Source of the DNA: Verrucomicrobiia bacterium
Lineage (GTDB): Bacteria > Verrucomicrobiota > Verrucomicrobiia > Limisphaerales > Fontisphaeraceae
DNA: 64,000 nucleotides
Assembly (NCBI GenBank): GCA_026414565.1
Contig: JAOAIT010000052.1
Location: 1-64,000 of the forward strand
Reading direction: 5' to 3'
Numbering within the stretch: position 1 is the first letter of the stretch; the number at the start of each line of letters is the position of its first letter. Position numbers and translations under genes: made by a program. Shown one piece after another: positions 47,101 through 58,422 of this stretch. The notes under the pieces were generated by a model. That model was not told the origin of the DNA. It searched no databases and saw only the letters and a program-made list of their open reading frames with translations.

Positions 47101-50100
47101 TTAAGGGGACAAACGCACACGGTAAAACCGTTGTCCCCCCTCTCCCTGGGGCAATAAGTACTCCAAAGGACGATTGGTGGCCGCAATTATGGCCACGTTC
47201 GTCCAACCTGCCAAATCAGAGGAAGCCTCCACCACATAACGCAAACCCGGATTACCCTCCAAGGTCAGGCGGAATTGCCCTCCAGCCTCCAGTCGAGGGC
47301 GCGACAACACGGGCGGCGCCAGCAGGGTCACCCACGCAGGTGCAGTATCATAAGTGGCATTGGTAGTGCTTACCGTGACATGATAGGCCCCCGCATTTGT
47401 CGCCTGAAAATTAGCCAGCGTCAGCGTGGCATTGGTCATGCCGGGCAAAGGCTGGTTTTGGAAGTGCCACTGATAGAAACGCAAGGCTTGCAGGCCGGTC
47501 ATGCCGACCGACAACACCACGTTGCTGCCGGGTTGCACCGCGCGGCTCAAAGGCACGTTGGTCAGCACATTCACAAACGCCCGCTCGCTGTTGGCCCGCC
47601 CGAGGACGCCCACTTGATTGGTAATAACCACATCGTAATACACGGCATTGGTGGCGTTTAAGTTGGTCAGCGTCAGCGTCGCCACATTGCTGTCCAAAGT
47701 CATCATGGCAACCGGAATGCCCACCCGCCGCCAAGTGTAGGTGATGGGCCACGTGCCGCTGGTTTCCACGCTCAAAGTAACGCTCTCCCCCGCGGCGCGT
47801 ATGACTGCCGGCTCGGGCTGCCGGACAAAACTCACCCGATACATGACCTTGAAAAAAACCGGCGGCGTTTCATACGTCCATGAGCCATCCCGTATAACCA
47901 CCGTGTACCATCCTTCGACCTCCGCCGTGACATTGGTCAGCCCCAACGTCCGCTGCGTGGCACCGGGAACGTCCACCCCATTGCGCCGCCATTGGAAGGT
48001 GTAATTGCCCAACCCGGAAACTGTCACCGTGAGATTGGTGGTGGTGCCATTGGTGACCGCCAACGGCATGGGCGGGATGACGTAGGTGATATACACCGGC
48101 TCACTCATGGCCAGCCCGGCCACATTGGCCACCGCGCAACGGAAACGATTGGCCAACAGGGCCGGCGGGTTGGTCAGCGTCAACACCGCCTCATTCGCGC
48201 CCGCCAACGGCTGATCATCCATAAACCACTGGAATCCCGCACCCGCCGAATTGGCCACACTGAGGCGGAAGACTGCCGCCTCACCCGCACTCACAAACGC
48301 CGGCCTCGGCTGGGCGGCAATGACCGGCCCCGCAAGCAGGCTGCCGGCCTGCCGGGGCTGCGTGCCCAGCAAAAACTCCTCGTAATTGCTGAAACCATCG
48401 CCGTCGGCATCTTGATCCGCATCGGCAGAATCAAATTTATTAAAGCCGTACTCGTCTTCATAAGCATCGGGCAGCCCGTCCTGGTCTATATCCGTCCCAA
48501 GGTAGGCCGGCACATTCGCCCGGCCCGGGGTGGGCGATAACCCCCGCCAGTTGACCGGTTCATTGGCATGACGCATGGGCCAGAACCGCTGAAGCGCCGC
48601 CCCGCCCCCCGCCGCCTCGGGAGGCCAGGGCAGATTCGGCGCATAAGTAACCCCTTCAACCAGCAGGTAAGGCACATAGCCCTGCAACGGTCCCGGCCCT
48701 TGCGGGGGATCAGGCCGCTGCAATTCCACGCGCTCGCCGGCATTATCCAGGCGTCCCCGCCACGGCCCAACAAGCGGCGTATTGCTCGGCAGGTTATACC
48801 GTGTCAGAAAAGTATTTCTGGCGGTGGCATCCCTTGCCGGGTCAAATCCCACCACCAGCAGGAAACCCCGGCGCGGCAGCACCGTGCCCTGCGGAAAATC
48901 AAAGTCCACCCCACCGCGCAGGCGCCAGGTGTTGGTGGGATAAGCCGGATCATATAGCGGCACATTGTTGGTGGAGAGGTTCAACAGTTCAATGTATTCC
49001 AATACCGCCGCTTCTTCCGCATTTGTGCCCCCCGTGGGCGGGGCATACATGATCTCATTCAACACCACCGGCCCCACCAGGGGAAGGGCATTGGGCAATC
49101 CCCCGCCCTGCCTGAACTCGGCCAGACTGACCGGGTTATCCCGCCCAAACGTGCGCCGCTGCAGGGGGACGTATTCGATGCCCACAGTAGTGTTGATGCG
49201 GCCGGCGGAAACACCGTTGGCCATCGGCCCCACTGCGGCAAACGTCCGCCGACCGGTAAGACGGCCCTCGCCATCGGCCTCCGACAGCCAAACCTCAGTG
49301 CCATAAACTGAACTTAAGGCAAAAGGTTTGGCGCCCGCGTTGAATTGATATTCGTAGAAGACCAAAAAGCCCTGGGGCGCCAGCACACTGCCCTGGGGCA
49401 GGCGATATTTCCGCAGGTCATGTTCCTGATCGCTCAGGTACCACCCGCTCACATCCACCGGCGCGTTGACCAGGTTGATCAGCTCCACCGCATCCTCCAG
49501 CGGGGCATCCGTATGCGTGAGCACCTCATTAATGGCCACCGTGGTCAGGGGCAGGTAATTCGGGCGGCCGGGGGTTGGCGAGGCCGGAAATCGAGTGATG
49601 ACATTGCCCCCATCGGGCAGGCGCCCCTCCGCCACGTTCGGCAGTTGCTCCCCAAACGCAACTGTATCAATCGTGCGCCCGTCCGCTGTCCGCAGTTGCA
49701 GATTCTCGCCCAGGGCGCTCAGCGCAAACGGCAAATGGTTGGCACCCCGCGAACGGCTGCCGCTGGCGTAAAACAAGGTTTGTCGCCCCGGCCCAATGAA
49801 ACTTAGCGGCGGCAACGCTTGTTGGTTGGGCCACACCAAAGCCGGCGAATCCGCAAAGACCAGCCCGCCCAGAGCCACCGGCCGCGCATCCAGGTTGTGC
49901 AATTCCACCCAATCATCGCCGCTGTCGGGATTGGCCATCCATTCATTGATGCGCAGGTTCAGGGGATCTCCCAGCAACGCCGGCGCGGCGTTGGACTGCC
50001 CGGGAGTGGGCGCCGCCAGCAACCGCCACTCCCCATTATGCAGCCCAATGCTGAAGTCCGCTGCCTGAGGCCCAAAACTCACTGAATCCACCAACAACCC

Positions 50101-53100
50101 CTGCGCGTTGAACAAGCAGACCTCCTCGCCCTCCCCGGAAAGCCCGAAGCCCGTGTTAAGATAGGGGCCGGCGTTGGTGGTGGCCGGACGCTCACTATCA
50201 CACCAGACCACCAGGAAACCTCCCGCAGGCAGGGTGGTATTGGTCGGGAATACCCACTTGTCAGGCACGTCGCGCCGATCGCTCAACCGCATGCCCCCCA
50301 AATTCACCGTCACACCCAGGGGGTTGTATAACTCAATAAAGTCAGCCCGGCGGAACATGGCATTGGTCACGGACCCGTAATTAATCGCCAAGATTTCATT
50401 CAACCGCGGCCCGCTGTTGGTCATCTGGTAATTCGGCGCGCCGGGCGTCGGCGACAGCGGGAAATACACCAAATTGCTGCTGGCATCCGGAAGACGCCCC
50501 ATCGAAACCCCCTCCGTCTGCCGGCCATAGCTGACGCGCTGAATTAAGTTGCCAGCGCTGTCATGCAAGGCAATTGCCCCGCCACCGGCGGCCAGTTTGA
50601 AATTGAGGTGTTCCGGCCCGGCCGTCTCATCGGCAAACAATCGAAGGTAACCGCCCGCTGGAATGAATGACAACGCATTGTAGCGGTATATGGTGGCGCC
50701 GTGCTCAAAATAAACCCCCTGCAAACCAACCGGCAGGGACGCCGGATTGTAGATCTCCAGCCAGTCCTCGCTGCCAGGCGGGGAATTCGCCATCCATTCA
50801 TTGAGCACCAATTGCCCGGCCGAAGCCAGCGGCGCAGCCTGGTTGGGGGCGCGTGGTGTGGGGCGGTTGAGCACCCATTGGCCACTGACGATGCCGATGG
50901 AATAGTCGTCCAGTTGCAGCCCGAAGCCCATCGCATCCACCAGATTGGTTCGTGCATCATAGAGGTAAAGACGGTCCCCGCCCCGGTTGAGAGCAAAGCC
51001 GGTGTGCAAGCCGGGCGCCGTGTAATTGGTATCGCAGAAAACCAGCAAATAGCCGCCCCCCTCGATGGTGGTCCCGGCCGGAAAAACAAACTTCCGCGGA
51101 TTGCTGTTATCGCTCAGGCTCCAGCCGGCGAGATTGACGGCACTCATGCCGCTATTATGCAACTCCACCCAGTCGGGCATCGTACCCCCGTTGGTGAGGG
51201 TGGTCAGGTTGGCGGCCATGATTTCGTTCAAGCGAATGGGCGCCGGCGGCGTCGCGGATGCGGTGGTGACCACCCCGGGCGTGCCCCCCCATGCCGCACT
51301 GCTCCTCCAGTTGGCCGGCTCATCAGGATCCCCCTCGCGCCGGACATACTCCAGAGAATATCCATAGCCATCCGGCTCTCTGGGCCAGCCATTTTCATCA
51401 TCATAGGTCACCCAAAAGATATTGCCCTCCGGCACAAAGCGTTTATCCACAATGCCCAGCCGCTGCCCACCGTTGGATAAATTGCCACCAAAATAACCGT
51501 CCACCTTCACCCCGGGATAGCGCGCCGCAAAGGCATTGCTGCTCAGCCCCGATGCCACCAGGAAAACCTCCCCCGGCGCCAATACCCGGCCCACCGGGAA
51601 GGTGTAATTGACGCCCGCCAATCCGAAATAACTCAAGTCCACGGGCACGCCCCCGGCATTATAGATTTCAATAAACTCATAAGCATCACCCCCCGGCGGG
51701 TTGTACATGATCTCGGTGATTTGCAGCGGCGTCCCCAGTTGCTCCATGAGAAAGGCGGCCTCATTAAGGGCGCTCCAACTGGTGCCAACCAGGTGCCGCG
51801 CCTTGACCACCGTCGAGCTGTTCAAGATAACCGGTCCGGTGTACAGCCGGGCCGTAGGCTCAATGGCCCCCGTGCCATACACGCGCGGATCCAGACCATT
51901 GGTGGTGTAATAAACCGCGCCGCCCCCCGCGTTGTTGGTGATGACCAGCGCAAATCCCTGCGGCACTCGTCCCCCATGTTGATTGAAGGACGGCGCGGCA
52001 TTGGTGGGATACAAACCCGCACTGCGCATCTGGCTCAAAAACACACTCTGGCGCTGGGGAAAATAGGATTGAATCAGCCGGTTCACCTCCGGCAGCCAGT
52101 AATCATCCCGCGTATAGAGATAATACGGACCCGTTTGATATTGATGCACATCGCGGCGGTAATCCCCCCAACGGGCCGACTCCGCAATGATGGGCAGATG
52201 CAAAATGGAGGTCCACCGCTGCCAGCGCGCAATGTTGTTCTCAATGCTAAGCGCGCCGTTGTTGAACAAATGCTTGTGCGTGCGATCGGCAAACAACAGC
52301 CGGTATTCCGCGTTCAATATGAGATTGGTGTGCAGGTTGGACGGCAAATCCGTGCTCGTCACCCGGTTGTGGTTGACATCCACGATCAGTTGCTCGCCGT
52401 CCCACGTAACGTATTTGAAGCGCCCGTCCGCCGCGCGTTTGCGCACCGCGTTCCAGTTGCCATCGCGCCCCCAGTCCTGATTCGCCCCGTAAAAATTGAG
52501 CAGCATGTAATCCACAAAATGCACCATGTCCAGCCGCTGGGTCAGGGCATTGTAGTTGGCCAGATTGGTGATGGCCGGACTGGTCCCCAGCGCCACCATC
52601 GCATTATAGGCCGTCATGTCGCCATCAATCGCCTCCGTGGGTTTGGAAACAATCGCATCGTATTCCTCCGGCGCGCCGCCCAGGTAGTTCGCCGCAAAAT
52701 TGGCATCCACCCGCTCCCCAAATTCATAGACCCCCCAGTACAAACCGTTCAAATACAGATGGAAAAAGCGCGAGTGCCCGGACAACATGCCCATGTCCCG
52801 CGCGGTTTCCTTGACCCACGCATCCCGGATTCGGGTCCCCCGCAGGCGCTGGTTGGGATCCCAATGCACCCAGGAATTGTTGAAATCAGCCCGCAGCACC
52901 AGGGTGTCAAACCGCTGCACCGGCGAGTCCTCAAACACCGGATATTCCAAATCCCCTGCCCCATACTTGCCCCGGAAAAGAAGCCGGAAGGGATGCTTCG
53001 GCGTCTTTTGCGGCGTGCGCGAGGCATTGCCTTGTATGCGTATGCCGCAATCCACCTGAAAAGCCGTGGCGCCATTCGTCAAAATGAACTCCGCCGAGCA

Positions 53101-54747
53101 GGGCCGCTCCCACAAATACCGCTGATCCGCCGGCGGTTCCGGGTGCGTGTAAATCCCGTTCACCGACCCAAACAGATCATCCACACTCAGGGTGATGGAC
53201 AATATCGGCAGCGCCCGCAGCGCATTGGTCATCTGCGCCGCATACGCCGGGTGGTTCACCACCTCGGGATCCATCTCATAATCGGACGGATACCCCGTCC
53301 ACACCGTGCTGCCCACCGGATAACCCGCCGGATCATTCGGCTGCCGCAACACCTGCCCCGGAAAAATATACGTGTGCGAAACCACCTTGGAGGGCAGCAA
53401 ATTGGGATAAGTCGCCAGCACCCGCAACACCGTGGTGTTGGTGATGCGCAATGGCCCGGTGTACAACGTGCCATAACTCGGCGTGGGCGCGCTGCCGTCA
53501 GTGGTGTAACGCAACGTGGCCCCCGGCAACGGATGAGTCAAAACCAGCGTGAACGGCTGCTCAAACAATCCCCGCGCCACACTCACATGCGCCACCGGCG
53601 TCACCCCCGTCAAGGGACTGTCGGGATTGGGCGCCCCCGGCGTGGGCGAGGCGTAATACTTCCATTGCCCTCCGGGACTCAACCCATAAGAGTAATCATT
53701 CCGCTGCTCCGGAAACTGCGGCCGAAATTCCGTGACCACCTCCCGCGGCGACTCGGCATTGTACAGGCCCAGATAATCGCCGTTGAGATTCAGCCGAAAA
53801 TTGGTGTGCAGCCGCAAACCGGTCTTGCGATCCTTCCCCGACGCATGCACCACCAGATATTGGCCCGGCTGCAATACCACCGCCGGAAACACCCAACGCC
53901 CGGGATCATTCGCATTGTCCGTTAACGACATCCCGCCCAAATTCACCGGCGCGCTGCCGTAATTGTACAACTCGATCCAGTCGGTCAATTCGCCATCCTC
54001 GTCCTTGTAACCCGTCGCGCTCTCATTCCCTGCCAGAAACTCGTTGATCCGCACCGTCGGCAGGCCCAGTTGCGGATTCAAAGTCACCGTCCACCCTTCA
54101 CCCACAAAGGCATTGGGCGCCGCAGCAAAATCCACAATCCCATGATTTGTCTGCCAGGCCAGATACACCGTGCCCGTTGCCGGCTGGCTGAAACTGAAAC
54201 GATACTGCCCCGGCGCCAGCAACGTAAGCTGGCCGGCCGGCGTCCCATTGACCAGCAAACTGCCTGCCCGCACCCCGGCCACCGGCTCACTGAACACCAC
54301 CTCCACCTGCGTCAGCTTCCGCACCACCGCCCCCGCCGGCGGCGTCACCGAAACCAGGCGGGGCGCCTCCACATCCACGTAATGGTAAGTCCACCGCGCA
54401 GAAGGCGCGTCTTCCACAAAACGATTGGGGGGCTCGGCCAGATCCCGAATATCATGCCCGGCATCCCACGTCATCTGCACCTCCCCATAATTCAGGCGGT
54501 CAAACAAAAACAAATACCCGCCATTGGTGAAAATGACCGTGTGCGCCGGCATCCCGTTGGCCAGCAAATCCTCCGCCAGCACATTGGTCACCGGCTCGCT
54601 GAAGGCCACCCACACCTGGCTGAGATTGGTGGCTACCCCCGGCGGAGGTTGCATGTCCACAAGCTGCGGCGGGGTGGTATCACCCTGCGCCCATAACGCC
54701 AATCCGGTCACCAGACCGGCCCACAAACACACTATTTTACGACTCAT
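47101..54747 (-). CDS. Giant secreted CotH-kinase protein with about eight lamin-tail domains
   Basis: 2548 residues from the ATG at 54745-54747, giving a signal peptide (LWAGLVTGLALWAQG). Two SbsA-type Ig domains (about 22-115 and 120-225, each with FSEPV) come first. A lamin-tail domain follows at about 230-350, then a chitobiase-like strand region and a CotH kinase domain at about 505-790. The kinase shows the most canonical motifs in this window: YWGVYEFGERVDANF and VTWDGEQ. Seven further lamin-tail domains follow near 1009, 1172, 1309, 1446, 1599, 1736 and 1894 (INEIMA, LNEWMA and similar, then ELYN/ELHN). A calcium-binding stretch (DIDQDGLPDAYED) near 2080, Ig-like domains, and a C-terminal strand region ending RFYRVRLSP complete it. 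Extracellular; the biological role is unknown. Confidence 0.92.
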   Translation of the reverse strand: MSRKIVCLWAGLVTGLALWAQGDTTPPQLVDMQPPPGVATNLSQVWVAFSEPVTNVLAEDLLANGMPAHTVIFTNGGYLFLFDRLNYGEVQMTWDAGHDIRDLAEPPNRFVEDAPSARWTYHYVDVEAPRLVSVTPPAGAVVRKLTQVEVVFSEPVAGVRAGSLLVNGTPAGQLTLLAPGQYRFSFSQPATGTVYLAWQTNHGIVDFAAAPNAFVGEGWTVTLNPQLGLPTVRINEFLAGNESATGYKDEDGELTDWIELYNYGSAPVNLGGMSLTDNANDPGRWVFPAVVLQPGQYLVVHASGKDRKTGLRLHTNFRLNLNGDYLGLYNAESPREVVTEFRPQFPEQRNDYSYGLSPGGQWKYYASPTPGAPNPDSPLTGVTPVAHVSVARGLFEQPFTLVLTHPLPGATLRYTTDGSAPTPSYGTLYTGPLRITNTTVLRVLATYPNLLPSKVVSHTYIFPGQVLRQPNDPAGYPVGSTVWTGYPSDYEMDPEVVNHPAYAAQMTNALRALPILSITLSVDDLFGSVNGIYTHPEPPADQRYLWERPCSAEFILTNGATAFQVDCGIRIQGNASRTPQKTPKHPFRLLFRGKYGAGDLEYPVFEDSPVQRFDTLVLRADFNNSWVHWDPNQRLRGTRIRDAWVKETARDMGMLSGHSRFFHLYLNGLYWGVYEFGERVDANFAANYLGGAPEEYDAIVSKPTEAIDGDMTAYNAMVALGTSPAITNLANYNALTQRLDMVHFVDYMLLNFYGANQDWGRDGNWNAVRKRAADGRFKYVTWDGEQLIVDVNHNRVTSTDLPSNLHTNLILNAEYRLLFADRTHKHLFNNGALSIENNIARWQRWTSILHLPIIAESARWGDYRRDVHQYQTGPYYLYTRDDYWLPEVNRLIQSYFPQRQSVFLSQMRSAGLYPTNAAPSFNQHGGRVPQGFALVITNNAGGGAVYYTTNGLDPRVYGTGAIEPTARLYTGPVILNSSTVVKARHLVGTSWSALNEAAFLMEQLGTPLQITEIMYNPPGGDAYEFIEIYNAGGVPVDLSYFGLAGVNYTFPVGRVLAPGEVFLVASGLSSNAFAARYPGVKVDGYFGGNLSNGGQRLGIVDKRFVPEGNIFWVTYDDENGWPREPDGYGYSLEYVRREGDPDEPANWRSSAAWGGTPGVVTTASATPPAPIRLNEIMAANLTTLTNGGTMPDWVELHNSGMSAVNLAGWSLSDNSNPRKFVFPAGTTIEGGGYLLVFCDTNYTAPGLHTGFALNRGGDRLYLYDARTNLVDAMGFGLQLDDYSIGIVSGQWVLNRPTPRAPNQAAPLASAGQLVLNEWMANSPPGSEDWLEIYNPASLPVGLQGVYFEHGATIYRYNALSFIPAGGYLRLFADETAGPEHLNFKLAAGGGAIALHDSAGNLIQRVSYGRQTEGVSMGRLPDASSNLVYFPLSPTPGAPNYQMTNSGPRLNEILAINYGSVTNAMFRRADFIELYNPLGVTVNLGGMRLSDRRDVPDKWVFPTNTTLPAGGFLVVWCDSERPATTNAGPYLNTGFGLSGEGEEVCLFNAQGLLVDSVSFGPQAADFSIGLHNGEWRLLAAPTPGQSNAAPALLGDPLNLRINEWMANPDSGDDWVELHNLDARPVALGGLVFADSPALVWPNQQALPPLSFIGPGRQTLFYASGSRSRGANHLPFALSALGENLQLRTADGRTIDTVAFGEQLPNVAEGRLPDGGNVITRFPASPTPGRPNYLPLTTVAINEVLTHTDAPLEDAVELINLVNAPVDVSGWYLSDQEHDLRKYRLPQGSVLAPQGFLVFYEYQFNAGAKPFALSSVYGTEVWLSEADGEGRLTGRRTFAAVGPMANGVSAGRINTTVGIEYVPLQRRTFGRDNPVSLAEFRQGGGLPNALPLVGPVVLNEIMYAPPTGGTNAEEAAVLEYIELLNLSTNNVPLYDPAYPTNTWRLRGGVDFDFPQGTVLPRRGFLLVVGFDPARDATARNTFLTRYNLPSNTPLVGPWRGRLDNAGERVELQRPDPPQGPGPLQGYVPYLLVEGVTYAPNLPWPPEAAGGGAALQRFWPMRHANEPVNWRGLSPTPGRANVPAYLGTDIDQDGLPDAYEDEYGFNKFDSADADQDADGDGFSNYEEFLLGTQPRQAGSLLAGPVIAAQPRPAFVSAGEAAVFRLSVANSAGAGFQWFMDDQPLAGANEAVLTLTNPPALLANRFRCAVANVAGLAMSEPVYITYVIPPMPLAVTNGTTTNLTVTVSGLGNYTFQWRRNGVDVPGATQRTLGLTNVTAEVEGWYTVVIRDGSWTYETPPVFFKVMYRVSFVRQPEPAVIRAAGESVTLSVETSGTWPITYTWRRVGIPVAMMTLDSNVATLTLTNLNATNAVYYDVVITNQVGVLGRANSERAFVNVLTNVPLSRAVQPGSNVVLSVGMTGLQALRFYQWHFQNQPLPGMTNATLTLANFQATNAGAYHVTVSTTNATYDTAPAWVTLLAPPVLSRPRLEAGGQFRLTLEGNPGLRYVVEASSDLAGWTNVAIIAATNRPLEYLLPQGEGGQRFYRVRLSP

Positions 54748-54905
54748 CTTCTCATCCCAAATACACCGGGGCACTTTGCCGGTGCGTGCAGTATTCGGAC
54801 TTTATCACACCCCCCCACCCCTTTCGAGAAGATTGTTGCGCAAACACGAAAAAAACAGGTGCCGGCGCTTGGACTATAACGCGGTAAAGAGCGTCCCCAC
54901 GGCCT

Positions 54906-55865
54906 TTACATGCTCAATAGAGCGCCGAAGCGGGGGCCGCGGGTGCTGAGGCAGAGTTCGGCAAAACCCAAAAGCTGCATAACCTCGGCAAAAATGGCGG
55001 TGCCCATGAGAATGACATCGGCCCGGTTGGGCGGCAGGCCGGCAATTTGGCGGCGCCGGGCCAGGGGCAGGCTCCACAGATGATCGCGCCATTGCCGTAC
55101 TTTGTCCGCCGGCAACCGCAGGTTTTCAAGCTGTTCGCGCTCAAACCCCGTCATCCCCAGCTCCATGCGCCCCAGTATGGTGGCGGTGCCGCCAATGCCC
55201 ACCCATTGGCAGCCGGCAGGCAGGTGCGGTTGAAGCGCCGGCAATACGGCAGAACTCAAAAAGGCATGCAGCCGCTGGCAACATTCCTGTTTTTCAGCCG
55301 GCGCAGGCGGATCGCTCAAATGCGTTTTTTCCAGCCAGCGGACGCATCCCAAGGGGTAGCTCGCCTGAAACCGGGCATGGCCCCCCGCGCCCACGATGAA
55401 CTGAGCGCTGCCGCCGCCCAGATCCATCAGCAACAAATCCTGACCGGCAAAGGCCGGGTGCGATAACACGCCCAAAAAGGCCCATTCCGCCTCCGTCTCG
55501 GCCGGAATGATTTCCAAACCAAGGCCGGTGGCGCTCTTGAGGGCATCCACCAGTTCGTTGCGGTTGGCGGCTTCGCGGGCCGCGCTGGTGGCGTAAACAC
55601 GCACGGCCTCGGCGCCAAGCGCACGGGCCTGGCGGACGAAGTCGGCCACACCCTCAACCGTCCGCGCTATGGCGTGCGGTTGCAGGAGATGCTGGCGAAA
55701 AAGTCCCTCGCCGAGGCGGGTCTGATGGCTGCCCTCCATCACGGGATTGACCACCCCGTTTTGAATATCGGCCACCAGCAATTTGACCGAATTGGTGCCG
55801 ACATCAATGACCGCCCGGCGACAGCCGGCTGAAGACGGCGGAGGACTGGCGGCAGCAAGCTCCAC
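54906..55865 (-). CDS. Ppx/GppA family phosphatase
   Basis: 319 residues from a GTG at 55863-55865, 12 bases after the ROK gene. The ASKHA fold is visible: the phosphate-1 loop VIDVGTNSVKLLVAD at about 19-33, SAAREAANR near 95, and the phosphate-2 loop LLMDLGGGSAQF near 146, then GIGGTATIL. Ppx/GppA enzymes release phosphate from polyphosphate or from pppGpp. At 319 residues this is the short, N-terminal-domain-only form, without the HD-like C-terminal part of E. coli Ppx. It is the last gene of the kinase operon 54906-58422. Which substrate it uses cannot be told. Confidence 0.9.
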   Translation of the reverse strand: MELAAASPPPSSAGCRRAVIDVGTNSVKLLVADIQNGVVNPVMEGSHQTRLGEGLFRQHLLQPHAIARTVEGVADFVRQARALGAEAVRVYATSAAREAANRNELVDALKSATGLGLEIIPAETEAEWAFLGVLSHPAFAGQDLLLMDLGGGSAQFIVGAGGHARFQASYPLGCVRWLEKTHLSDPPAPAEKQECCQRLHAFLSSAVLPALQPHLPAGCQWVGIGGTATILGRMELGMTGFEREQLENLRLPADKVRQWRDHLWSLPLARRRQIAGLPPNRADVILMGTAIFAEVMQLLGFAELCLSTRGPRFGALLSM

Positions 55866-55877
55866 AAGGCGGCTGAC

Positions 55878-56876
55878 TCAGTTCTTGCCCTGCGCCTTGA
55901 GCATGCGACGGGCCAGCACGGCCCCGCCGGTAATGCCCGCCTCATCGCCCAGTTTCGAGGCAATAATTTCAATGCCTTTGGCCGTCCCGGGCATGGCGTA
56001 ATCTTGCGCCGTCTCGATGATGATGGCCATCATCTCGTCTTCCAGGGCATCCAGCACACCGCCCCCCAGCACGATAACTTCCGGATTGATGATGTTGATC
56101 AGATTGCCCACCGCAATGCCGATGTATTCGGCCGCCTCCTCCACGACCTTCTCCACAAATTTATCGCCGCGGCGGATGGCCTTGCGCAAATCACCGCTGC
56201 GCAGATCGTCCAGACTGGCTCCCAGCATGTCGGTAAGCACAGTCTTCTGCCCCTCTTTCACAGCAGTCTGAATGCGGCGAAAGATGGCTGTACGACTGGC
56301 CAGCGCCTCGAAACATCCTTTATTGCCGCAGCCGCATTTGGGGCCATTGACCTCCAGCACCATGTGGCCCACTTCGCCGGCGGTGAGGTTGTAACCGCTG
56401 AACAGCTTGCCGTCGATGATCAAACCACCCCCAATACCCGTCCCCACGAAAATGCCAATCACGTGTTTGGGTTTGGCGTTAAGCTCGGCCTCATACACGC
56501 CCAGCGTGCATACGTTGCAGTCGTTTTCAACGAAAGTAGGCACATCCAGCCGTTTCTCCAATTCCTTCTTCAGAGCTATATTCTCCCACCCGGGCATGTT
56601 GGGGGAAAAAATGACCTTGCCCGCTTCGGGATCAATCGAACCGGGCGCACCCACACCCACACCCCGCACTTGTTTGAGCTCCAGATCACACTCATCCACC
56701 GCGTCCTGCACGCAACGCGCAATCCGGTCAATCACCGCGTCTGGCCCGCGATTGGCCTTGGTGCTCAATTTGGCCGTGCCCATCAATTTAAGGGACGTGG
56801 TGAAAACCCCGGCCAGAATCTTCGTGCCGCCGAGGTCCACGCCCACCAGATATTCTTGTTTTGCCGGTTCGCTCAT
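55878..56876 (-). CDS. ROK family sugar kinase (glucokinase-like)
   Basis: 332 residues. It has the N-terminal ATP phosphate loop GVDLGGTKILAG at about 12-23, a catalytic-Asp region (FVENDCNVC), and the ROK zinc motif C-x-C-G-x-x-G-C-x-E as CGCGNKGCFE. No N-terminal DNA-binding domain is present, so it is a kinase and not a ROK repressor. Glucose or N-acetyl sugars are the likely substrates. It lies between a thymidylate-kinase-like gene (29 bases) and the Ppx/GppA gene (12 bases). Confidence 0.92.
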   Translation of the reverse strand: MSEPAKQEYLVGVDLGGTKILAGVFTTSLKLMGTAKLSTKANRGPDAVIDRIARCVQDAVDECDLELKQVRGVGVGAPGSIDPEAGKVIFSPNMPGWENIALKKELEKRLDVPTFVENDCNVCTLGVYEAELNAKPKHVIGIFVGTGIGGGLIIDGKLFSGYNLTAGEVGHMVLEVNGPKCGCGNKGCFEALASRTAIFRRIQTAVKEGQKTVLTDMLGASLDDLRSGDLRKAIRRGDKFVEKVVEEAAEYIGIAVGNLINIINPEVIVLGGGVLDALEDEMMAIIIETAQDYAMPGTAKGIEIIASKLGDEAGITGGAVLARRMLKAQGKN

Positions 56877-56905: not shown

Positions 56906-57721
56906 TCAGGACGCCCCTGCCGCCGTCTTCTGCAGGCTCTTGCCCGCCAGCACTTCCTCAATGCGGCGGCGCAGCTCCCGGTTGATTTGCTCGGGCGGCA
57001 GGTTGCCGTCAACGATGGTAAAGCCGTAGATGCGCTGCAGTAGGAGAAATTTTTCCGAGATGAGCGACTGGTACTTCAAGAAACTGTCAAACATGTCCCG
57101 GCTCAGCCCCAAATCCATGCCGCTCTCCCAATAGTCCAAATGGTAGTTCTTGGCAAAGTTGCGCTGCACCAGAATCTCCGGCGAAACATTCAGATAAAAG
57201 ACCGCGTCCGGAATGGGCGCAATGCCATAGAGGTTCTTCAGCCATTCCTCCTCCAGCCCCCGCACCAGATCACGCGCCATGAGCGTGTAAATATATCTAT
57301 CGGCCAGCACAATGAACCCGGCCGTCAACGCCGGAATGATGGTGTTCTCCAACTGATCGGCAAAGTCCGTGGCGTAAAACAGACTGAACGTGCGGCGGCT
57401 GAGAATGTTGCCGCGCTGGGCCTGCTCCAGTTCATCACGCACCAGCTCGGAACGTTTCAACCCCACCTGCACCGTCGCGTGACCGCTGCCCTCAAGCCAC
57501 TCCACCAACAGCCGGATTTGCGTGGAACGGCCGGAACCATCTGCGCCCTCGACCACAATCAATCGGCCTTGCAGATGCGAAGAATCCACATTCGGCAGGC
57601 CATGGCCATAGAAGGAGCGCGGCCGCGGCTTGGGCACAACGATGTCCGGCACCGTTACGGAGGGAGGCCTCGTCGCAGCGGACGATCGGGGCGGACGTTT
57701 GCTGGAATTGCGGGCAGGCAT
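56906..57721 (-). CDS. Thymidylate-kinase-like protein with an altered P-loop
   Basis: 271 residues from the ATG at 57719-57721; a TTG at 57725-57727 is the alternative. About 50 residues at the N-terminus are basic, proline-rich and unlike the family. The kinase part begins with RLIVVEGADGSGRST: the P-loop lysine of GxDGSGKST is replaced by arginine (R66). The DRY motif (ADRYIYTLMARD) and a C-terminal adenine/LID region are retained. It is paralogous to the gene just upstream (57724-58422), which keeps the lysine. Thymidylate kinases phosphorylate dTMP; loss of the P-loop lysine usually abolishes or lowers activity, so this copy may be a regulatory partner or have another role. Confidence 0.85.
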   Translation of the reverse strand: MPARNSSKRPPRSSAATRPPSVTVPDIVVPKPRPRSFYGHGLPNVDSSHLQGRLIVVEGADGSGRSTQIRLLVEWLEGSGHATVQVGLKRSELVRDELEQAQRGNILSRRTFSLFYATDFADQLENTIIPALTAGFIVLADRYIYTLMARDLVRGLEEEWLKNLYGIAPIPDAVFYLNVSPEILVQRNFAKNYHLDYWESGMDLGLSRDMFDSFLKYQSLISEKFLLLQRIYGFTIVDGNLPPEQINRELRRRIEEVLAGKSLQKTAAGAS

Positions 57722-57723
57722 GG

Positions 57724-58422
57724 TCAAACGGAAATGTGCACCGCGCTTTCGCGCGCGAAGGATTTCAAATCAATCCGGGCCGCCACCAGTTGGCGCACCA
57801 GCGATTGCTGGGCCTCGATGGGCTGGTTGGCATCAATGACGGTAAATTTGAATTCAGTGCTCATCGCCAGGTAACGCTCAAGGAGCCGCCCCTGGAAAAT
57901 GCGGAAACTCTCATAAGGATCCGATGACAGCCGCATATCCATCCCCGCTTCAAAGTATTTGAGCTGCGGACGGCCGCTGAGGATCCGATTCAGGGACACC
58001 TCCAGGTTGGCCCGAAAGAAAAAGGTGATGTCCGGCAGGTTGGCAAAGCTGTAAATGCCGCGCACCCAGTCCATCGGGCACCCCCGCACCGTGTCCCGGG
58101 CAAAAGCCGTGAAAATGTAGCGGTCACAAAGCACCAGATATCCGGCCCGCAACAGCGGCACCAGATGCCGCTCATAACGATCGGCAAAATCGGTGGCGTG
58201 GATGAGACTGAAGGTGGTGGGCGTCAGCAGCTCGCGCTTTTTCCCCTTGCTCGTGGCCGATTTCACCAGCTCGGAGGAGTTCCATTCGCTGAAAAAGACC
58301 TTCAATCCCTGCACCTCCAGCCACCGTTTGAGCAAATAAATCTGGGTGGATTTCCCGGAGCCGTCCAGGCCCTCAACGGCAATCAATCTTCCAGGGAAAC
58401 CAAGTTCCGCAAAGGTCTTCAT
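57724..58422 (-). CDS. Thymidylate kinase family protein (intact P-loop)
   Basis: 232 residues from the ATG at 58420-58422; the longer frame upstream is not protein-like. The P-loop GLDGSGKST is complete at about 18-26. DRYIFTAFARD (base-binding DR motif) and FFFRANLEVSLNRI follow in the usual positions. It may be the cell's dTMP kinase, but the LID differs from E. coli Tmk, so no symbol is given. The next gene's ATG lies two bases after its stop. First gene of the operon; the upstream 234 bases are shared with the divergent gene at 58657. Confidence 0.88.
   Translation of the reverse strand: MKTFAELGFPGRLIAVEGLDGSGKSTQIYLLKRWLEVQGLKVFFSEWNSSELVKSATSKGKKRELLTPTTFSLIHATDFADRYERHLVPLLRAGYLVLCDRYIFTAFARDTVRGCPMDWVRGIYSFANLPDITFFFRANLEVSLNRILSGRPQLKYFEAGMDMRLSSDPYESFRIFQGRLLERYLAMSTEFKFTVIDANQPIEAQQSLVRQLVAARIDLKSFARESAVHISV

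Follow-up and report, generated by a model that had tools for sequence, protein, structure and literature searches.

A conserved pair of thymidylate-kinase-like genes in Limisphaerales as a probable PPK3-type polyphosphate kinase

A 64,000-nucleotide stretch of DNA from a verrucomicrobial genome, called here the window, carries two adjacent genes, T1 and T2, whose products resemble thymidylate kinases. As judged from their sequences, they probably encode a bacterial PPK3-type polyphosphate:ADP kinase, with T1 as the catalytic subunit and T2 as its degenerate regulatory partner. The pair is taken as a heteromer of this type because it matches the layout reported for PPK3. The crenarchaeal PPK3 of Hofmann et al. 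is reportedly encoded by two adjacent 'thymidylate kinase' genes beside ppx, one of them catalytic and the other regulatory, in a genome that is said to have a separate true tmk, and it reportedly makes mainly ATP from ADP and polyphosphate (polyP), a store of phosphate and energy.

The gene pair and its conservation

As shown in Table 1, T1 and T2 are followed downstream by a ROK-family gene and then by a Ppx/GppA gene, all on the minus strand, and two bases separate the stop codon of T1 (57724-57726) from the ATG of T2 (57719-57721). The tandem paralogues reported in the preliminary description, with GLDGSGKST upstream and GADGSGRST downstream, were thus confirmed from the sequence (in full, EGLDGSGKST in T1 and EGADGSGRST in T2), as was the presence of the ROK kinase and Ppx/GppA genes in the same run. 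Both proteins match the Pfam family Thymidylate_kin (3.5e-21 for T1, 9.9e-19 for T2), and they share 40% identity across 217 residues. Ahead of the common GRLI, T2 carries 41 residues beyond T1; this extension is basic and proline-rich, as had been described, and in its last part a motif, F[YH]GxGxP, is conserved. This motif occurs in 69 of 80 T2 relatives (the best 80 of 392), and an alignment of 28 rows shows no variation at G39, G41 and P43 and almost none at F37 and Y38. When the first possible start of T2 was compared with the stop of T1 in 79 loci, a four-base overlap was found in 37, a start further back in 11, and a gap in 31. A scan for promoters and terminators gave nothing above shuffled sequences. 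Beside the operon lies an open frame of 2557 aa (47101-54774, minus strand) with repeated segments that, by eye, are presumably lamin-tail-like and CotH-like.

Table 1. Features of the T1-T2 gene run (positions in the window)
Feature	Positions	Strand	Remarks
T1	57724..58422	-	232 aa, thymidylate-kinase-like P-loop kinase, ARD/ST1543 type; proposed catalytic subunit (cPPK3-like)
T2	56906..57721	-	271 aa, T1 paralogue with degenerate active site; proposed regulatory subunit (rPPK3-like)
P-loop Arg codon CGT, T2 residue 65	57527..57529	-	
P-loop Lys codon AAA, T1 residue 24	58351..58353	-	Lys in 80/80 T1
T1 Arg109-Asp110 within 'DRYIFTAFARD'	58093..58098	-	replaces Gln-Gly of canonical 'DRxxxSxxAYQG'
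T1 LID signature EAGMD, residues 158-162	57937..57951	-	EAGAD in ST1543, ESGMD in T2
T2 N-terminal motif FYGHGLP, residues 37-43	57593..57613	-	possible docking element
ROK-family sugar kinase	55878..56876	-	ordinary glucokinase type; PF00480 1.6e-68
Ppx/GppA exopolyphosphatase-type gene	54906..55865	-	PF02541 1.5e-45

A scan of public genomes with T2 gave 392 stretches encoding relatives, and the best 80 were analysed; according to their titles, 78 come from Verrucomicrobiota, one is assigned to Klebsiella pneumoniae (L010, a bin that is apparently misnamed) and one is simply a 'bacterium' (L011). The P-loop arginine is present in all 81 T2 sequences (the window plus the best 80 of 392), encoded by CGC in 40, CGT in 22, CGA in 9, CGG in 7, AGG in 2 and AGA in 1. 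T1 lies directly upstream of T2 in 79 of these 80 loci (best 80 of 392), and the remaining one (L026) reaches the end of its contig. The dN/dS ratios, rough values from eight pairs chosen by hand of which about half had a dS above 0.7, were 0.010-0.075 for T1 and 0.015-0.152 for T2 in seven of the eight pairs, one not being computable. On this sequence evidence, the P-loop arginine is under purifying selection, beyond chance and with no decay, because it occurs in every T2 through six codons, dN/dS is low and T1 is kept alongside. The search across Verrucomicrobiota that had been proposed therefore found the arginine conserved, and the idea that it could be unique to this genome, pointing to pseudogenisation, is excluded, since all 80 relatives examined (best 80 of 392) have it; with the codon usage, the low dN/dS and the adjacency of T1, the same conservation ruled out T2 as a pseudogene.

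Of 116 genomes in the window's order (Limisphaerales/Pedosphaera group), 99 carry both genes; the pair was called where a genome gave two matches with E no higher than 1e-30, and the T1 profile was also used. Among 387 genomes across the phylum, a true T1 plus T2 was found in only two, both from the window's order, so that the pair is present in 0 of 385 sampled genomes of the phylum outside it, provided that no member of the order is among the unmatched genomes (rows were sorted by kinship and none appears). As both searches scored up to 7 candidates per genome, a miss is possible in these counts. The other 225 genomes matched in the phylum search reached 2e-24 at best, and the canonical AYQ or VYQ motif was present in all 28 of them whose loci were examined. 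In one genome of the order (G450, locus L220, G450:C29:19000-23000) a T1 fragment of 134 residues is open and T2 was not found, which suggests loss or breakage of the pair, or a misassembly. Long frames in five genomes (G454, G483, G416, G437 and G472) were checked as candidate T1-T2 fusions, and none is one. Relatives were also found in 33 plasmid records and 20 named-phage records, with identities up to 34% among the matches listed (20 each).

Kinship and active sites

The identity of the pair as thymidylate kinases, given in the preliminary description, was not supported. A canonical tmk is found elsewhere in the genome (G000:C7:68603-69184, with DRFYDSTTAYQG), and neither protein reaches the cut-off of the dTMP kinase equivalog model TIGR00041 (83.25), with 81.3 for T1, only two bits short of it, and 69.6 for T2. 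Canonical bacterial Tmk shares the fold and the P-loop with T1 and T2, but its E47-P48, its DRxxxSxx[AV]YQG motif and its shorter LID (12 sequences) all differ in both. In T1 numbering, E47-P48 and Gln109 are present in 12 of 12 canonical sequences, whereas position 47 is W in 80 of 80 T1 and L in 81 of 81 T2, and R109 is found in 80 of 80 T1, 81 of 81 T2, ST1543 of Sulfolobus tokodaii (PDB 2plr) and 10 of 10 viral relatives. G160 and D162 in the LID follow the same pattern (80/80 T1, 81/81 T2, ST1543 in 2plr, 10/10 viral relatives), in the place of a gap in 12 of 12 canonical enzymes. A thymidylate kinase signature was found in none of the 80 T1, the 81 T2, the single ST1543 and the 10 viral relatives, but in 11 of the 12 canonical sequences and in 13 of the 15 viral canonical ones. 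The set of 12 consists of PDB 5x98 and the 11 of 29 loci (L001, L095-L122) that were caught by script patterns, the canonical loci missed by these patterns all having AYQ or VYQ on reading; the 15 viral ones are those caught among the 19 loci L141-L159, L160-L210 being left out. Because of the separate canonical tmk and the replacement of the EP and AYQG motifs, neither T1 nor T2 looks like a dTMP kinase, as far as motifs can tell. A duplicated tmk was ruled out on the same grounds together with the tree placement outside the canonical group. Part of the canonical loci (L095-L100, L102-L105, L107-L110, L116, L118, L119 and L121, from the same class) represents a Tmk subtype unlike the tmk of the window genome, with (F/Y/R)EPT, GIDGTGKST and DRYYxSxMAYQG-like motifs; L106 is an exception.

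By sequence, structure and tree, T1 and T2 join ST1543. A T1 profile, built from 28 of the 80 T1 rows, matched ST1543 in the PDB with 235 bits, the next chain reaching 57, and T2 alone matched it with 155 bits, against 51 for the next. Foldseek searches also placed the ST1543 entries first, at 1.3e-22 versus 1.2e-12 for the next entry with T1, and at 3.8e-17 versus 6.6e-12 with T2; the AlphaFold2 models have a mean pLDDT of 89 for T1 and 75 for T2, and in the latter residues 62-64 in the P-loop and 192-206 in the LID fall below 50. ST1543 (PDB 2plr, 4nzy, 4rzx and 5h70) is deposited as a dTMP kinase. It is 44-48% identical to T1 in the Foldseek alignments, with one gap in the phmmer alignment, and it has the EWNSS and ARD of T1 and EAGAD where T1 has EAGMD; unlike the bacterial T1, it is archaeal, and the PDB matches include no partner for it.

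A tree was built from 48 of 199 collected sequences, the tool warning of long branches. In it, T1, T2, ST1543 and the viral relatives are grouped together and are separate from canonical Tmk (100/99). Within it, T1 is one group (99/99) and T2 another (100/100), and T1 joins ST1543 and the long-branched viral L138 instead of T2 with a support of only 85/81, a single clade of T1 and T2 not being rejected (p 0.235). Several of the viral relatives, from IMG/VR contigs, carry additional domains. In L132 (5920-7083) and L135 (5920-7119) a T1-type kinase domain with R109-G110 is fused to an inorganic pyrophosphatase domain (PF18823 at 6.6e-11 and 2e-12, these being the two scanned), and L131 (cut by the contig end), L133, L134 and L136 are of the same fusion type, on viral contigs of up to 126 kb, with a YGFIPNT stretch common to the last three. 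In L137 (5455-7377), L139 (5452-7887) and L140 a NUDIX domain precedes the T1-type kinase domain, and a long C-terminal part gave no Pfam match in L137 and L139, the two scanned; the 819 residues read in L140 are those of L139, and the contigs of L137, L139 and L140 are of about 30, 97 and 369 kb.

The active-site residues distinguish the two subunits. K24 and R82 are present in all 80 T1, in ST1543 and in 10 of 10 viral relatives, versus R24 and Q82 in 81 of 81 T2; where T1 and ST1543 have R85, all 81 T2 have N, the viral relatives being variable at this position, and K155, invariant in T1, is D in 79 T2 and N in 2. On the other hand, D100, R101, T105, R109, R113, R146, G160 and D162 are retained in 81 of 81 T2. 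We infer that this is the pattern that a subunit keeping the scaffold and losing catalysis would be expected to show.

Gene neighbourhood and polyphosphate metabolism

The Ppx/GppA gene, two genes downstream of the pair, is the single one detected in the window genome (a draft, 97% complete). Its best NCBIfam model is an exopolyphosphatase (200.9 bits, below the cut-off of 307), and that of the ROK gene is a ROK glucokinase (223.7 bits, below the cut-off of 260.35). A role as polyP glucokinase was not supported for the latter, which gave 36.4 bits with the polyP-glucose phosphotransferase model versus a cut-off of 250 and is of the ordinary ROK glucokinase type.

The neighbours of the pair in the 80 loci (best 80 of 392) were compared with 80 evenly spaced control windows of 12.75 kb from two single-contig genomes of the window's order, a grid point near the pair in one of them (G453, 1630000) being omitted; the controls held more DNA, 1.02 Mb versus 0.84 Mb in the test loci. 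PPX, at half-query coverage, was found near the pair in 32 of 80 loci versus 0 of 80 controls, and in 33 versus 0 when the PPX of the window alone served as query. In the remaining 48 loci PPX is absent within the available flank, which is under 2.5 kb downstream in 16 of the 80. Any of PPX, PPK1, SixA, CHAD and PhoU was present in 35 loci versus 1 control. The commonest neighbour is ROK (52/80 versus 0/80), although it has no known polyP role here. Apart from these two, single neighbours are not significant: PPK1, 5 loci versus 0 (p 0.059); PhoB, 7 versus 1 (p 0.064); PhoR, 7 versus 2 (p 0.17); SixA, 5 versus 1 (p 0.21); CHAD, 3 versus 0 (p 0.25); PhoU, 2 versus 0 (p 0.5); and ABC ATPase, 10 versus 7, p values that flatter the result because the 80 loci are related by descent and most queries were drawn from them.

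Some loci hold several of these genes. The pair occurs with SixA and PPK1 in L039, L049, L053 and L081, three of which also have CHAD, and with PhoB/PhoR-type genes upstream in L016, L018, L022, L071 and L082. Domain checks were passed by PPK1, CHAD and SixA of L053, by SixA of L077, and by PhoU, the histidine kinase, the response regulator, the ABC ATPase, Ppx and the Ppx-GppA domain III of L071; the name Pst for the permeases next to PhoU comes only from inspection by eye. In three loci (L071:8838-9563, scanned with Pfam, L032:8717-9343 and L082:8814-9545), ppx is followed by a separate gene of the Ppx/GppA domain III/HD type, as if the halves of a long Ppx were split. The theme of phosphate balance put forward in the preliminary description, where it also covered nucleotides, is therefore backed by the neighbours, through PPX in 32 of 80 loci versus none of the controls, and through PPK1, CHAD, SixA and Pho genes in a few.

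The window genome also encodes PPK1 and a two-domain PPK2. Among the 116 genomes of the order, 82 have both PPK1 and the pair, 17 the pair only, 9 PPK1 only and 8 neither. In 6 of them (G395, G404, G408, G458, G461 and G467) the distance between PPK1 and the pair is at most about 9 kb, and four of these are the loci L081, L021, L053 and L049 again. The pair fills no gap, because PPK1 and PPK2 coexist with it here and 82 of the 99 genomes that carry it have PPK1 too; the idea that it replaces PPK1 was not supported. PPK2 is also a P-loop kinase that uses polyP and a nucleotide. Neither T1 nor T2 gave a Pfam match to PF03976 (PPK2) at E up to 1, and the score of T2 with the NCBIfam model of polyP:AMP phosphotransferase is at chance level (12.9 bits versus a cut-off of 547.65).

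Proposed function and competing explanations

A distinct PPK-type enzyme has been found in Sulfolobus (Hofmann 2026, as given in PMC13318637), and the titles of two works by Hofmann et al. (a 2024 preprint, 10.1101/2024.08.28.610084, and J Biol Chem 2026, 10.1016/j.jbc.2026.111283) refer to a family 3, or a distinct family, of polyP kinases (PMC13318637, PMC11677633). A paper on CHAD proteins names SixA, PPX, dTMP kinase and CHAD together in a gene group of biomining archaea (Sulfolobales; PMC10892726), genes that also occur near the pair in the loci compared here. Among the matches listed in a literature search on Verrucomicrobia and polyphosphate, none contained 'thymidylate kinase', a search that is uninformative on the two Hofmann papers.

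The likeness of the pair to PPK3 is drawn from the description given at the beginning, ST1543 of S. tokodaii being the only archaeal relative compared. The features found here that agree with it are a group apart from Tmk, a nearby exopolyphosphatase and a separate tmk, and the gene layout is the same, but with ROK between the pair and ppx. In T2, the arginine P-loop and the N-terminal FYGxGxP segment may be differences from the archaeal regulatory subunit. PPK3 is crenarchaeal, whereas T1-T2 is bacterial and coexists with PPK1 and PPK2 in the window genome.

In the proposed mechanism, T1 and T2 would form a heteromeric PPK3-type polyphosphate kinase. T1 would be its catalytic subunit, a P-loop enzyme of the thymidylate kinase fold with a basic site, specific to the family, in place of the dTMP-binding motifs, and it would reversibly move phosphate between polyP and a nucleoside diphosphate (polyP(n) + ADP = polyP(n-1) + ATP). 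T2, catalytically weak or dead, would be retained as a stable partner with an activating, stabilising or regulatory effect on T1, and its conserved FYGxGxP segment may serve for docking. PolyP would be removed hydrolytically by the exopolyphosphatase encoded nearby. The heterodimer of active and regulatory subunits suggested in the preliminary description agrees well with the conserved site of T1, the loss of several residues in T2 and their adjacency in 79 of 80 loci; the heteromer itself and its activity are what we infer. Its other suggestion, divergence to another nucleotide, was not favoured, polyphosphate being the likelier substrate.

That second suggestion leads to the main competing explanation, a heteromeric NMP kinase in which T1 acts on a nucleotide other than dTMP (or on dTMP too), T2 modulates it, and the polyP neighbours reflect general phosphate regulation. 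The fold and the Pfam family are those of thymidylate kinase, ST1543 was deposited as a dTMP kinase, and the fusion of viral T1 relatives to Nudix or inorganic pyrophosphatase domains suits nucleotide metabolism; however, the dTMP motifs are replaced in all members examined, a canonical tmk is already present, and exopolyphosphatase is found among the neighbours, joined in a few loci by PPK1, CHAD and SixA, so that we regard this explanation as rather unlikely.

It is more doubtful still that T1 is the sole enzyme of the pair, either as a polyP or as an NMP kinase, and that T2 works independently on a substrate of its own, with the arginine serving for the P-loop lysine. Such a role would agree with the purifying selection on T2 (dN/dS 0.015-0.152 in 7/8 pairs) and with its retained DR and ARD arginines, but not only Lys24 has been lost: Arg82, Arg85 and Lys155, all invariant in T1, are missing from 81 of 81 T2, parts of the P-loop (62-64) and LID (192-206) of its model have a pLDDT under 50, and T2 adjoins T1 in 79 of 79 loci with upstream DNA (from the best 80 of 392). 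An ordinary duplication of thymidylate kinase with one copy decaying, which the annotation-level similarity and the arginine substitution could suggest, is highly improbable against an arginine present in 81 of 81 sequences through six codons, the low dN/dS, the presence of both genes in 99 of the 116 genomes examined from the order, and the position of both T1 and T2 outside the canonical group.

A broader picture can also be drawn, to which we give about an even chance. PPK3 would be a cross-domain family, represented in this order by an obligate heteromer, order-wide, of an active kinase and a pseudokinase with a fixed P-loop arginine; alongside PPK1, this heteromer would turn polyP into ATP within an energy buffer, and the relatives fused to pyrophosphatase or Nudix domains in viral contigs would tap the same pool.

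If the PPK3-type reading is right, a 'thymidylate kinase' pair that is conserved, and likely misannotated, across a large order known mostly from metagenomes would be a polyphosphate energy enzyme, and the polyP kinase family of Crenarchaeota would extend to bacteria. Annotation as tmk would then misjudge both dTTP synthesis and polyP metabolism, and T1 and T2, two small proteins, would offer a natural pair of active enzyme and pseudoenzyme with a diagnostic residue.
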